In this document: piece after piece, positions 14,081 through 36,945 of the stretch
How the letters are laid out: each line of letters opens with the position of its first letter
Numbering within the stretch: position 1 is the stretch's first letter
DNA from: a virus
Strand: one strand, 5' to 3'
Length of the DNA stretch: 42,353 nucleotides
IMG/VR virus record: IMGVR_UViG_3300044957_000733
Location: 1 to 42,353 of that record
Made by a program: the position numbers and the translations under genes
The notes under the pieces: model-generated
Told to the model about the DNA's origin: nothing
Databases searched by the model: none
What the model saw: the letters and a program-made list of their open reading frames with translations, nothing else

Positions 14081-14341
14081 TTACTTAATCAAATCCTCAT
14101 ATTTTTTCAAAATACTATTATTTGGGTCGATAATGGTTAAAATTTTGTCCGAGTGAATCATAAAGACATTCTGAGGTGTATAGTCTAACATCCAAGGAAT
14201 TAATGTCATATCAGACTGAATAACAAATGGTTCAATCAATTTACAATCAGGTTCTCCTAATTCAGAACCAACTTCTTCAATCTGTGAGACCAATATTTGA
14301 TTGTTGAGAAGAATCAGAATCTTTATTATTTTCTTTTCCAT
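14081..14341 (-). CDS. Small Sm-like protein upstream of gp43
   Basis: The 86-residue product starts MEKKIIKILILLNNQILVSQ. The pattern is a strand with N-N-Q, a P(D)CKLIEPFVI strand, a WMLDYTP block, then a strand containing HSDKILTIIDP. The same order is seen in the next upstream gene and in the gene at 28140-28529, so I infer a small beta-barrel of the Sm/LSm kind. The reading frame overlaps the 3' end of that upstream gene by 65 nt, in a different frame. The ATG at 14341 is the only early ATG. It ends 1 nt before gp43. The function is unknown; an RNA-binding role is only a guess from the fold. Confidence 0.6.
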   Translation of the reverse strand: MEKKIIKILILLNNQILVSQIEEVGSELGEPDCKLIEPFVIQSDMTLIPWMLDYTPQNVFMIHSDKILTIIDPNNSILKKYEDLIK

Positions 14342-14660
14342 AATTTACAACATCCTCAATATACATTTGTGTTAATCTTGCAATTGGTTCGACAATTGTT
14401 ACAATCCAATCTGACGGAACTGGTATGACTTTATCAACAGTTAATGGCATCCAAGGATATAAAGATACTTGAAATGTTGATTTTTTTTGTTCTTCTGTAG
14501 ATTCTTCAGTCAGAAGAGTTGGTTCTCTCATTTTTACAATACAAGGTTTATTGAGAAAATATCCAATTACGTGACGATTTTCATCTTCTCCAGAAACCAT
14601 CTCTGAAACATCTGCGATTAAGTCTTCTCCAGACTTTAAAAGCAACAACTTTATCGTCAT
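14277..14660 (-). CDS. Small Sm-like protein, first gene of the gp43 operon
   Basis: The 127-residue product starts MTIKLLLLKSGEDLIADVSE. It contains the order KSGEDLIADV, LNKPCIVKM, SLYPWMPLT and WIVTIVEPIARL, which matches the KTGEEIFTKV, LNPITVSEI, WMKTTT and FVINLNDVVTM order of the gene at 28140-28529. The ATG at 14660 is preferred over a GTG at 14666. The predicted transcription start lies about 15 nt upstream. The tail (about 100-127) is acidic and Ser/Gln-rich and overlaps the next gene. As the first gene after a terminator-embedded promoter, it is probably expressed early. The function is unknown. Confidence 0.65.
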   Translation of the reverse strand: MTIKLLLLKSGEDLIADVSEMVSGEDENRHVIGYFLNKPCIVKMREPTLLTEESTEEQKKSTFQVSLYPWMPLTVDKVIPVPSDWIVTIVEPIARLTQMYIEDVVNYGKENNKDSDSSQQSNIGLTD

Positions 14661-14681
14661 TTTCACTTTATATCTTCATCC

Positions 14682-14710
14682 ATTATATCATAAAAAAAAG
14701 GAGGTGTCAA
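14682..14710 (-). promoter_or_regulatory. Perfect sigma-70 promoter overlapping a terminator
   Basis: The minus strand has TTGACA (14705-14710), a 17-nt spacer (14688-14704) and TATAAT (14682-14687), matching the bacterial consensus in all 12 positions. The -35 box lies in the hairpin of the hsp20 terminator and the spacer is its U-tract. It would drive the Sm-like genes, gp43, uvsX, gp41 and mazG. Confidence 0.85.
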
Positions 14711-27536: not shown

Positions 27537-28016
27537 TTAGTATCTTATTTTACTGTATACATCATCTTTAATAGTATTATATTCAGAATACTTTTCACTG
27601 TCAAGAGTGTTATCGTCAGTAAAAACTTCACTAAATCCGGAACGTTCAAGAATTTTATCTTTAATTTCTAATTGACGCTTTTCTCTCTGAATACGACGAA
27701 GAAAAGCATAGTAAATAACTTGTGTAAAATATGCGAATGGATTTTTAGATTTGTTTGGATCAAATCTATCAATGTACTGAACACAATTTTCAATTCCATC
27801 ACAAATCATATCTTCCTTGAACATATAATTAACAAAATTTGGTTTGAATGAAAGATGATTAGCAATCTTCAAAAAACATTCTCCAATATAGCGTGGTATG
27901 ACTGGTTTTGGTTTATCTTGAAAAATAGATATTTGAACATCTTCAGAATACTTAATTAATGCAGCAAGAAAATCCTTATTATTCACATAATGATCTGACC
28001 TTTTTATTTTAGTCAT
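27537..28016 (-). CDS. gp55: Late-promoter sigma factor gp55
   Basis: The 159-residue sigma factor directs the host RNA polymerase to NATAAATA promoters, with gp45 as coactivator in T4. The family block NYMFKEDMICDGIENC (near 69-84) is present, then FDPNKSKNPFAYFTQVIYYA and FLRRIQREKRQL. The start at ATG 28016 (MTKIKRSDHYV) is preferred to ATG 28034 by comparison with the expected gp55 start; neither has a good ribosome site. The divergent promoter at 28060-28088 would give a leader of about 40 nt. It controls the late genes listed here. Confidence 0.9.
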   Translation of the reverse strand: MTKIKRSDHYVNNKDFLAALIKYSEDVQISIFQDKPKPVIPRYIGECFLKIANHLSFKPNFVNYMFKEDMICDGIENCVQYIDRFDPNKSKNPFAYFTQVIYYAFLRRIQREKRQLEIKDKILERSGFSEVFTDDNTLDSEKYSEYNTIKDDVYSKIRY

Positions 28017-28059
28017 GATACTTGTTTTTATCATAAGTTTTATTCATTATTATATAGAA

Positions 28060-28088
28060 ATTATAATACATATTTAAATACTTGACAA
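28060..28088 (-). promoter_or_regulatory. Sigma-70-type promoter for gp55-gp47-gp46
   Basis: The minus strand has TTGTCA (28083-28088, 5/6), a 17-nt spacer and TATAAT (28060-28065). Its -35 overlaps the -35 of a promoter on the other strand. It would start transcription near 28053. Confidence 0.65.
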
Positions 28089-28110
28089 GGTTCTTAGATT
28101 AATGTATAAT
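28082..28110 (+). promoter_or_regulatory. Perfect sigma-70 promoter on the plus strand
   Basis: The plus strand has TTGACA (28082-28087), a 17-nt spacer (28088-28104) and TATAAT (28105-28110), matching consensus at all 12 positions. Transcription would start near 28117 and run antisense into the gene at 28140-28529. No plus-strand gene follows that I can support; only a nine-codon GTG frame is present. Confidence 0.65.
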
Positions 28111-28139
28111 TACCTTTGTGAAGGTTGAAAAGATTATTA

Positions 28140-28529
28140 TTAGCTAATATTATAAAGTTTCTCTAATATCTCTTTAACATTATTTACATTTGAAAAATAA
28201 TCCATTTCTTTAATTAGTTTTGATTCATTAATTTTCTCTTCATCTAGTTGTTTAACATATAATTGATGCATCAAAATCATTTCAATATCATAAGATTCAG
28301 ACATAGTAACAACATCATTTAAATTAATTACAAACATATTTTCTGTTGTTGTTTTCATCCAAGATTCAAATTTATATCCAGAAACTCCAGATCTGTTCTT
28401 AATTTCTGATACTGTAATTGGATTCAAAATAAATAATAAAGTTTTATCTTCTTCTTCAAATACAGATACTTTGGTAAATATTTCTTCACCAGTTTTTAAT
28501 TTAATTGATGCGTAAAAGTCTTCTTCCAT
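28140..28529 (-). CDS. Small Sm-like protein downstream of uvsW
   Basis: The 129-residue product starts MEEDFYASIKLKTGEEIFTK. It has the same strand order as the two small proteins upstream of gp43: KTGEEIFTKV, FILNPITV, WMKTTTENMFVI and NDVVTM. The second half is a helical tail rich in Lys, Glu and Asn (INESKLIKEMDYFSN). The ATG overlaps the uvsW stop by 1 nt (TAATG). The function is unknown. Three paralogues in one genome region, all beside replication or recombination genes, suggest a shared partner or nucleic acid target. Confidence 0.6.
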   Translation of the reverse strand: MEEDFYASIKLKTGEEIFTKVSVFEEEDKTLLFILNPITVSEIKNRSGVSGYKFESWMKTTTENMFVINLNDVVTMSESYDIEMILMHQLYVKQLDEEKINESKLIKEMDYFSNVNNVKEILEKLYNIS

Positions 28530-29998
28530 TATTTTTTAAGTTGTACTGTGATGATTTCATAATTAAATTTTTCTTCATTATAAATTTTAATTCTTTCTAT
28601 AAAATGATTTAGTGTGTAGTTTTTTCTTGAATTGTAAGTGCAATCATCAGAAATATCATATAAGACTGCCTTTTTTTTATTTTTTCCTTTTCTTAAAACT
28701 CTTCCAATCGATTGAAGATTTCTAATTCTAGATTTATTAGGAGATGCAAATATTACATTATGTAAATTTTGAATATTTATACCAGTTGAGAATGTACCAT
28801 AAGAAGCAACTATAATCGCATCACTTTCTTTTTCAGTAATTTCTCTTGTAAGTTCTCTCTCCTCTGTATCTACACCACCATGAATAAAAAAGACTTTTCT
28901 ATCATTCTTCTTGTTATTATTTATCATTTCATATAATATATATCCGTGAGTTTCTACTCTACTATATAAAACTAAAGTATTTCCTTTTAAATCTAAGGTT
29001 AAATTTTTAATAAATTTATTTCTTTTCTCATGAGAAATTAAATATTGTATTTCATCTTCATAAACATCAAATTTTTGAGGAGGGTGTTTAAGAATAATAC
29101 ACTTAATTTCCAATTGTGAAAGATGTCCTTGTTTCATCAACTGATCTGTCCTTGTAACTTTATATGATGGACCAAACAAGCCCTCCAAAACCCACTTATG
29201 AGTTTGAGTTCCGTCTAAAGTTCCAGTAAATCCAAATCGATATTTAGCATGATGTAATTTAGTCATGATTGAAATTAATGACTTACTCTTAAATAAATGA
29301 GCTTCATCACCTATAATAACTCTATAGTTTTCAAAAAAAGAACGCTCAAGTTTGTATATTGATTGCCAAGTAGTAATTGTAACCGAATTCTCATTTGTTT
29401 TTTCTCTTCCTGAATAAATTCGATGACAATATAATTCAGCATTCCAACCATAGTCTTGAAAGTCCTTATACAATTGCTCCACGAGTGATGTCGTAGGAAC
29501 AACTAAAAGTATTTTTTCTTGCTTATCTACATAGTATCTTACTAACGAATAAATCATCAGAGATTTTCCTGATGCTGTGGGAGATATCAATAATTTTCGA
29601 TTATTTCTTAATGCATCATATACTCCCTCTACTTGATAGTCACGAGGAGTGTAACAACAAATAGATTTCATATAATCTTGAACACCTTCTAATGAAATTC
29701 CATCATTTATTTCAAAAGGTTGTCCATAAAACTTATTATATTCAAAACTATAAGTATAATTTGCTTGCTCACAAAAATTTATAATTTTATCTAAAAGGCC
29801 AACATATATCTGTTTATTTCTGATGTCAAATAAATGAATTTCACCATTCCAATATTTATTGCGATATTGAGACATAAACTTTGCCCCATCTACTTGAAAT
29901 GTAAAATGATCTCTTAATTCATACTCAATGTAAGGTTGAGTTTGTAATTTTAAAAATACTTCGTTTATTTTTTTAATAATAACGTCTGATGCACTCAC
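28529..29998 (-). CDS. uvsW: UvsW RNA-DNA helicase
   Basis: The 489-residue superfamily 2 helicase resolves R-loops and branched DNA and switches origin use late in T4. Motif I is SPTASGKSL (139-147), motif II DEAHLF, motif III FTGTLDG, and motif VI is in QSIGRVLRKGKNKKKA near 440. The N-terminal domain (1-110) matches the UvsW accessory fold. The start is GTG (29998), for which no better ATG is close; AGGTG lies 12 nt upstream. A GATAAATA late promoter lies 22 nt upstream, which matches late expression of T4 uvsW. Confidence 0.93.
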   Translation of the reverse strand: MSASDVIIKKINEVFLKLQTQPYIEYELRDHFTFQVDGAKFMSQYRNKYWNGEIHLFDIRNKQIYVGLLDKIINFCEQANYTYSFEYNKFYGQPFEINDGISLEGVQDYMKSICCYTPRDYQVEGVYDALRNNRKLLISPTASGKSLMIYSLVRYYVDKQEKILLVVPTTSLVEQLYKDFQDYGWNAELYCHRIYSGREKTNENSVTITTWQSIYKLERSFFENYRVIIGDEAHLFKSKSLISIMTKLHHAKYRFGFTGTLDGTQTHKWVLEGLFGPSYKVTRTDQLMKQGHLSQLEIKCIILKHPPQKFDVYEDEIQYLISHEKRNKFIKNLTLDLKGNTLVLYSRVETHGYILYEMINNNKKNDRKVFFIHGGVDTEERELTREITEKESDAIIVASYGTFSTGINIQNLHNVIFASPNKSRIRNLQSIGRVLRKGKNKKKAVLYDISDDCTYNSRKNYTLNHFIERIKIYNEEKFNYEIITVQLKK

Positions 29999-30019: not shown

Positions 30020-30027
30020 TATTTATC
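30020..30027 (-). promoter_or_regulatory. Late promoter GATAAATA of uvsW
   Basis: GATAAATA on the minus strand, 22 nt upstream of the GTG of uvsW. The sequence is nearly palindromic, with TATAAATA on the plus strand at 30014-30021. Confidence 0.6.
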
Positions 30028-35264: not shown

Positions 35265-36945
35265 TCTCTCCTCCCTTAGGAATTTCTGCAATTTTTCCAT
35301 CTGCAACTGTTACATCGCCTTGTTTATCAATATTAGGTTCCATTACTGGTTGTCCTAAATTCATTTGAGATGTTTGATCTAATGGAAGATCAGTCTGTGA
35401 ATCAATTGGTTGATTTGGATCTGGAATAATTCCATTTTCAATTTCTTTTTTGATAATTGAATCTTGCTCAATAATTTCAACATCAGTTTGACGAAGAATT
35501 TTACGTCTTATATAATCTTGAGAGAAATATTTACCAACATAAGGTTCAGCAACTTGTACCATATTTAATCTTTCGTTCAATAATTCTGCATCCTTAAGTT
35601 CTGCAAAGTGATTATCATATAAAAAATCATATTGTATATGTTCACTCATTGATTCCCAATCCTCTGGAGTGATAATATTTTTAAGAATCAATTGAGTTTT
35701 TAACATATCATTAAACATATATGAGAACCTTTTTCTCAATCTACCAACAAACTTACTAAACTTAACTTCATCACGAAGAATTTCCGAAGATCGACCAAGA
35801 TTAAATCCTCCCTGTCCATCCATTCTCGATGGAGGAATATTTAAAGAACGATAAAGTTTTTTCTTAAAGTATTCAATATCTGTGATTTCACCAAGATTTT
35901 GGCCACCAGGAAGAGTTGTGATTTCAGTTCCTCTTCCACCCTCTCTTCGTGGTAACCAAAAATCTTCCATCATTGACATCATTTTTTTATCATCACGAAT
36001 TTCTCCAGTATTCGCATCATATACAAGTTTATTACGATATCTCATCATCACATCACGGAGATATTGTTCTGCTTTTACTTTAGGAAGATTTCCAACATCA
36101 ATATAAAATATTCTTCTTTCTGGTGCTCTTGAAAGACGGTAAATTACCAAAGAATCTTCAATCATACGAAGTTGATTAAGAGACTTAATTGCCTTATGAA
36201 GATATGAAAGAGTTGATCCCTTATTACGATCTACAAGACCAGAAGTGCAATATGTAATTGAATCTCTGGTCATTTTAATTCCTGCCTCACCACCCAATGC
36301 CGATGGATTGCCTGTGGGATAAGACATTTTAGGGTTATAAATAAAATATTCTTCAATCTCAGGAAATTCATATTCCATTGGATTGCGACTATTTGCATTT
36401 GCTAATCTATATCTTTTATTAAAATCTGTGGTTTTCTTTTGTTGCCTTATATAACGCATTTTTATTGCGTCAATATATCTTAATTCTTGTATTCCTTCTT
36501 CTGATTTTTTTAAGTCTATTATCTTATGATAATAAAGTCTTCCATCAATATACCAATTTCTATAAATTTCGTGAGATTTTCTATCAAAATCTAATAAGTT
36601 AAGAATATTTTTAAATTCTTCTCTAATTCTTTTTTTAATACCATCGCTGGCATTTAAGTTTGAAAGTTCAATTTCTACTGGACTATCGTTTGTGTCAGAT
36701 ACAATTGCCTCACTTACAATATCTTCAATAGCACTGTCACATTCTGGATGAAGTGCCATTTCACGGTACCTTTTAATTAAATCAAATTCAGTTCGGTAAA
36801 CACCTTCTATATCTATATAAGAGCCGAAAAATCCACTGCTCAAATAAAAATCAGATCCGTCTTCGCTATTTGGAGGAATTGGTGATACAACGGATGGTGA
36901 TATTAATTTTTGGTCTTCAATAGAAAAACCAAATAATTTTGCCAT
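35260..36945 (-). CDS. gp20: Portal vertex protein gp20
   Basis: The 561-residue portal forms the dodecameric ring through which DNA enters. It shows the gp20 features: an N-terminal half with FDLIKRYREMALHPECDSAI and IVSEAIV, a long middle with RLSRAPERRIFYIDVGNLPK and AEQYLRDVMMRYRNKLVYD, then LPGGQNLGEI and SRMDGQGGFNLGRSSEILRDE near 350-400, and a C-terminal helix. The length agrees with T4 gp20 (524). An AATAAATA late promoter lies 25 nt upstream. Confidence 0.97.
   Translation of the reverse strand: MAKLFGFSIEDQKLISPSVVSPIPPNSEDGSDFYLSSGFFGSYIDIEGVYRTEFDLIKRYREMALHPECDSAIEDIVSEAIVSDTNDSPVEIELSNLNASDGIKKRIREEFKNILNLLDFDRKSHEIYRNWYIDGRLYYHKIIDLKKSEEGIQELRYIDAIKMRYIRQQKKTTDFNKRYRLANANSRNPMEYEFPEIEEYFIYNPKMSYPTGNPSALGGEAGIKMTRDSITYCTSGLVDRNKGSTLSYLHKAIKSLNQLRMIEDSLVIYRLSRAPERRIFYIDVGNLPKVKAEQYLRDVMMRYRNKLVYDANTGEIRDDKKMMSMMEDFWLPRREGGRGTEITTLPGGQNLGEITDIEYFKKKLYRSLNIPPSRMDGQGGFNLGRSSEILRDEVKFSKFVGRLRKRFSYMFNDMLKTQLILKNIITPEDWESMSEHIQYDFLYDNHFAELKDAELLNERLNMVQVAEPYVGKYFSQDYIRRKILRQTDVEIIEQDSIIKKEIENGIIPDPNQPIDSQTDLPLDQTSQMNLGQPVMEPNIDKQGDVTVADGKIAEIPKGGEI

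Follow-up and report, generated by a model that had tools for sequence, protein, structure and literature searches.

Antisense transcription in T4-like cyanophages has been described for CfrI of phage S-PM2, an RNA of ~225 nt that runs opposite psbA and a homing endonuclease gene (PMC2984593; PMC12197685). The locus described here, which lies beside the gene for the late sigma factor gp55, resembles that of CfrI in that antisense transcription would occur in the genome of a T4-like cyanophage with most of its genes on one strand (PMC2984593; PMC12197685). It differs in that CfrI belongs to the psbA locus and was demonstrated experimentally, whereas the gp55-side promoter is known from its sequence. 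Given that antisense transcription in cyanophages is already known from CfrI, the novelty of the present observations is limited. Promoters reading against phage genes are also known for lambda OOP and aQ, P22 sar, PAK_P4as15 (PMC12197685) and the T4 gene 32 antisense RNA; these have other loci and targets, and the cyanophage RNA considered here is a predicted one.

A further possible likeness is to the T4 replication origins oriF and oriG, in which a middle-phase promoter is followed by a downstream unwinding element near uvsY and which are regulated by UvsW (PMC3016281). T4 uses MotA promoters, whereas cyanophages are without motA (PMC2984593), and the present locus is a candidate for an origin role. 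In its boxes (i.e., TTGACA-17-TATAAT), the promoter matches the host-type (sigma-70-like) promoters that these genomes carry on their coding strand. Most of the latter are, however, found on the gene strand, while the antisense promoter faces no gene and is usually alone on its strand. The 2010 study of Sullivan reportedly used BPROM for genome-wide promoter prediction.

Divergent promoters at the gp55/uvsW border

The window analyzed (i.e., the whole IMG/VR record of 42,353 bases) is part of the genome of a T4-like cyanophage of the Kyanoviridae type. Its gp55 was 75-77% identical to those of Synechococcus phages SynMITS9220M01 and Bellamy, and its gene order, uvsY-uvsW-Sm-like-gap-gp55-(small ORFs)-gp47-gp46, agreed with that of annotated Kyanoviridae (Table 1). 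The Sm-like identity proposed for the gene next to the gap in a preliminary description of this DNA was borne out by a Pfam match (E 3.8e-12), and the 462 phage records in which this gene was found were all cyanophages or marine single-cell viruses. Intergenic copies of the late-promoter motif described for cyanophages, NATAAATA (PMC2984593), extended in the window from the tail-sheath region (39.8 kb) to uvsW (30020-30027), and the next was found only at ~8 kb. Because these motifs stop at uvsW, the divergent promoter pair lies at the border between the genes with late promoters (gp23-gp3-uvsY-uvsW-Sm-like) and the pre-late gp55-gp47-gp46 replication/recombination block.

Table 1. Positions of the promoter boxes, genes and late-promoter motif at the gp55/uvsW border of the window.
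Feature	Position	Strand	Remarks
Antisense -35 box, TTGACA	28082-28087	+	TTGACA in 86/87 relatives
Antisense -10 box, TATAAT	28105-28110	+	Family pattern TANAAT, third base G/C/T
Conserved block TACCTTTGTGAAGGTTG, core CTTTGT	28111-28127	+	Directly 3' of antisense -10; spans expected start near 28117
gp55 promoter -35 box, TTGTCA (5/6)	28083-28088	-	Overlaps antisense -35
gp55 promoter -10 box, TATAAT	28060-28065	-	Expected start near 28053
gp55, late sigma factor	27537-28034	-	PHROG 234, E 1.4e-64; first ATG 28034, second in-frame ATG 28016
Sm-like gene, first gene antisense to plus transcript	28140-28529	-	PF16243; PHROG 471 (annotated 'methylamine utilization')
uvsW helicase gene, second gene opposite plus transcript	28529-29998	-	PHROG 16 and others; synteny with annotated isolates
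Late-promoter motif GATAAATA, immediately 5' of uvsW	30020-30027	-	Motif NATAAATA from PMC2984593

Two divergent sigma-70-type promoters were found exactly where the preliminary description had placed them, each with a 17-nt spacer and TATAAT. The plus-strand copy matched the sigma-70 consensus at 12/12 positions, with a spacer within the 16-18 nt range. The gp55-facing copy, TTGTCA-17-TATAAT, had been given the same spacer and -10 box, but fell short of the full consensus (11/12), with its single mismatch in the -35 box. Both -35 hexamers are contained in the palindrome CTTGACAAG (28081-28089), in which they overlap by five bases. The pair appears to consist of host-type (sigma-70/RpoD) promoters, one arm of which would start gp55, while the other would be an orphan antisense promoter. 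As had been claimed, the plus-strand copy faces no gene: no plus-strand ORF of at least 40 aa was found between 28110 and 30330, and the positions of the Sm-like gene and uvsW place both of them antisense to it.

Perfect TTGACA-N15-19-TATAAT sites numbered three in the window vs. 0.2 expected, and none of 100 shuffles reached three. The antisense promoter was the sole perfect site on the plus strand, so that the description of it as the only plus-strand signal holds for perfect sites; under looser criteria it does not, as an 11/12 promoter-like site lies at 35488-35516 inside the portal gene. The other two perfect sites are on the minus strand. One, at 27576-27604 with a 17-nt spacer, lies within gp55, at its 3' end, and is directed toward gp47; it is perhaps an internal promoter serving gp47-gp46. 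The other, at 14682-14710, has an extended TG before its -10 box and is upstream of a small ORF (14277-14666).

Conservation and rarity of the antisense promoter

A first scan of 80 gp55 relatives revealed two conserved islands in the upstream DNA, separated by diverged DNA, and 21 isolates displayed the same pattern. In the resulting set of 87 non-identical regions upstream of gp55 (66 from environmental contigs and 21 from isolates), the antisense promoter was present in every region at 10-12/12 (score 10 in 5, 11 in 71 and 12 in 11), which amply confirms the conservation that the preliminary description had asked about. The mean best score was 11.07/12 vs. 8.3 in shuffles, whose highest mean was 8.52. 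The sole -35 box other than TTGACA was TTGCCA. The -10 box followed TANA(A/C)T with one exception, TATGAT, and the spacer was 17 nt in 80 regions and 16 nt in 7. Spacer sequences had diverged, while boxes and spacing were kept: the weighted column information was 1.85-2.0 bits in the -35 box and 1.5-2.0 in the -10 box, except for its third base (0.5; G/C/T), and was below 0.6 in most spacer columns.

The promoter was also retained at almost all loci found via the Sm-like protein, down to 35% identity. A whole-genome search located it in S-PM2 at 84446-84474, upstream of gp55 and in a separated layout; the reverse-strand start would be expected just below 84446 in that phage and just below 123705 in Syn9. 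In three Straboviridae outgroups, no comparable promoter was found upstream of gp55 (best scores 7-8/12).

We also counted the strict pattern TTGACA-N17-TANAAT on each strand of 22 sequences, all of them whole genomes or large contigs. On the gp55 strand there were 2-18 matches per genome or large contig (3 to 12 in the two environmental contigs), and on the opposite strand 0-4. The antisense site was the sole opposite-strand match in 15 of the 22 and one of two in another; in the remaining six it was present and departed from the strict pattern by a 16-nt spacer or one base. When the -10 box was relaxed, it was again the sole opposite-strand match in Syn9, P-HM1 and S-SCSM2R. Looser rules (11/12, spacer 16-18) added a few opposite-strand sites, mostly within genes. 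The antisense promoter is therefore the 'only' promoter on its strand for the strict pattern alone.

Independence from the gp55 promoter

The single -35 box shared by the two promoters is common (74/87) but not essential. In the other 13 regions, i.e., those of Syn9, S-RIM2, P-SSM4, S-MbCM6, ACG-2014a/b/d/f, S-CAM1, S-CAM7 and P-HM1 and the loci L066 and L073, the best gp55 promoter has its -35 box elsewhere, at offsets between 10 nt before and 31 nt after the shared position. The antisense promoter of these regions scored 10-12/12, with TTGACA in 12 of them and spacers of 16-17 nt. On the gp55 tree, relocation of the gp55 -35 box requires five changes, of which well-supported branches force at least three. 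Since the antisense boxes stay when the gp55 -35 box moves, the antisense promoter is ruled out as a by-product of the gp55 promoter, and it is the antisense promoter rather than the shared box that is the conserved object. On this comparison, the antisense promoter appears to be selected in its own right.

These distances also bear on a rather unlikely alternative, in which the backward promoter would adjust when or how strongly gp55 is expressed: overlapping promoters could not be occupied by two polymerases at once, divergent transcription would shift local supercoiling, and the RNA would be a by-product. Such tuning is consistent with the prevalence of the shared box, with the location of most other gp55 -35 boxes within one or two polymerase footprints, and with the -35 match, which at shared boxes is always better for the antisense copy (TTGACA vs. 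TTGTCA). The distance between the antisense -35 and gp55 -10 boxes, however, varies freely from 12 to 54 nt, whereas the internal spacing of the antisense promoter is fixed at 16/17 nt, and the two -35 boxes are up to 31 nt apart (S-CAM1). Furthermore, the loci L183 and L187 have a different ORF in the place of gp55 beside the pair, and yet their antisense promoter remains 12/12.

Sequences downstream of the antisense promoter

Conservation past the antisense -10 box spans ~20 nt, with no excess constraint beyond. The conserved block was rejected as a repeated regulatory motif, as it occurs as a single copy at the antisense site and has one other match, in S-PRM1. A hairpin or operator dyad after the -10 box (AACC...GGTT, in many copies) was likewise rejected, with arms only slightly longer than in shuffles (3.7 vs. 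3.0) and no covariation. So was a hidden antisense ORF: frames of 25 or more aa occur in half of the loci, mostly from scattered TTG starts, and none is conserved. Synonymous sites of the Sm-like gene beneath the predicted antisense RNA displayed no excess of constraint over those of gp55; cis-antisense action requires no such extra constraint.

No conserved terminator of the antisense RNA was found within ~1.9 kb downstream. In ~29% of loci (including L034 and L046), a hairpin follows the antisense start at a distance of ~1.9 kb, close to the start of uvsW, and adjoins the late-promoter-like motif AATAAATA; this hairpin could either terminate the antisense RNA or regulate translation of uvsW. 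Other hairpins, tandem and with CTTCGG loops (e.g., AGTTCCCTTCGGGAACT), occupy a widened gap between the Sm-like stop codon and the antisense promoter at the loci L191, L194, L195, L198, L200, L202, L203, L205 and L206. In L183 and L187, the antisense strand between the Sm-like gene and the conserved promoter (i.e., downstream of the latter) carries an ORF of 232 aa (minus strand; L183:643-1341 and L187:1873-2571). This ORF includes the N-terminal domain of a T4-type terminase (PF03237) and has its own TTGACA-17-TAAGAT.

The downstream DNA could instead serve an R-loop replication origin, where RNA from the orphan promoter would stay annealed and prime replication as at T4 oriF (ori(uvsY)) and oriG. 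We regard this as improbable. The T4 origins, in which the unwinding element is A+T-rich, are turned off in the late phase, as UvsW unwinds their R-loops (PMC3016281), and the present site is ~2 kb from uvsY and adjoins uvsW. In 3 of 5 genomes, the DNA downstream of the promoter is among the least stable (percentile 0.01 in the window, 0.001 in DSL-LC03 and 0.04 in SynMITS9220M01), but it is not unusually unstable in Syn9 (0.17) or S-RIM2 (0.31), and the extremes of cumulative GC skew lie away from the site in four genomes.

The conserved block around the expected start and the adjoining Sm-fold gene point to yet another product, a discrete small regulatory RNA that would act in trans, perhaps with the neighboring Sm-like protein. 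The lack of an Rfam match, a conserved terminator, covariation, or excess constraint beyond ~20 nt argues against such an RNA, which we consider quite improbable.

That an A+T-rich window contains two look-alike promoters by chance, as the finding that window sites scoring at least 9/12 are no commoner than in shuffles might suggest, is extremely improbable, and a chance origin is refuted by boxes and spacing that are conserved throughout the family, independently of the gp55 promoter. The plus-strand boxes are thus very probably a real promoter under selection.

A possible element of the early-late switch

The likeliest of the readings considered, at slightly less than even probability, is that the product of this promoter works chiefly as an antisense transcript to the Sm-like gene and uvsW. 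We infer the production of this RNA, as well as its timing, length and effect. Before the late phase, polymerase with the host sigma factor would start near 28117 on the plus strand and run backwards through the Sm-like gene and uvsW, yielding a cis-antisense transcript. Such transcription would oppose premature sense transcription of the tail of the late operon. Once gp55 takes over the polymerase, the host-type antisense promoter would fall silent and the late promoter of uvsW would win. Late promoters are off early anyway, which counts against the need for antisense silencing. UvsW of T4, which unwinds the R-loops of origins, is produced from a late promoter (PMC3016281), so that keeping uvsW off early would make biological sense.

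T4-like cyanophages rank with the most abundant viruses of sunlit waters, and their timing of the switch to late genes, in which MotA and AsiA of T4 have no part, is only partly understood. In the fullest form of our proposal, which is possible though doubtful, a promoter universal to these phages and often the sole strong one on its strand would drive antisense transcription before the late phase and so keep uvsW and the tail of the late operon in check (or would prime R-loop replication there) until gp55 is made, so that the late-sigma gene, the R-loop helicase and the Sm-like protein would form one early-late switch. The backward promoter at the gp55/uvsW border provides a precise and testable element for the study of that switch.
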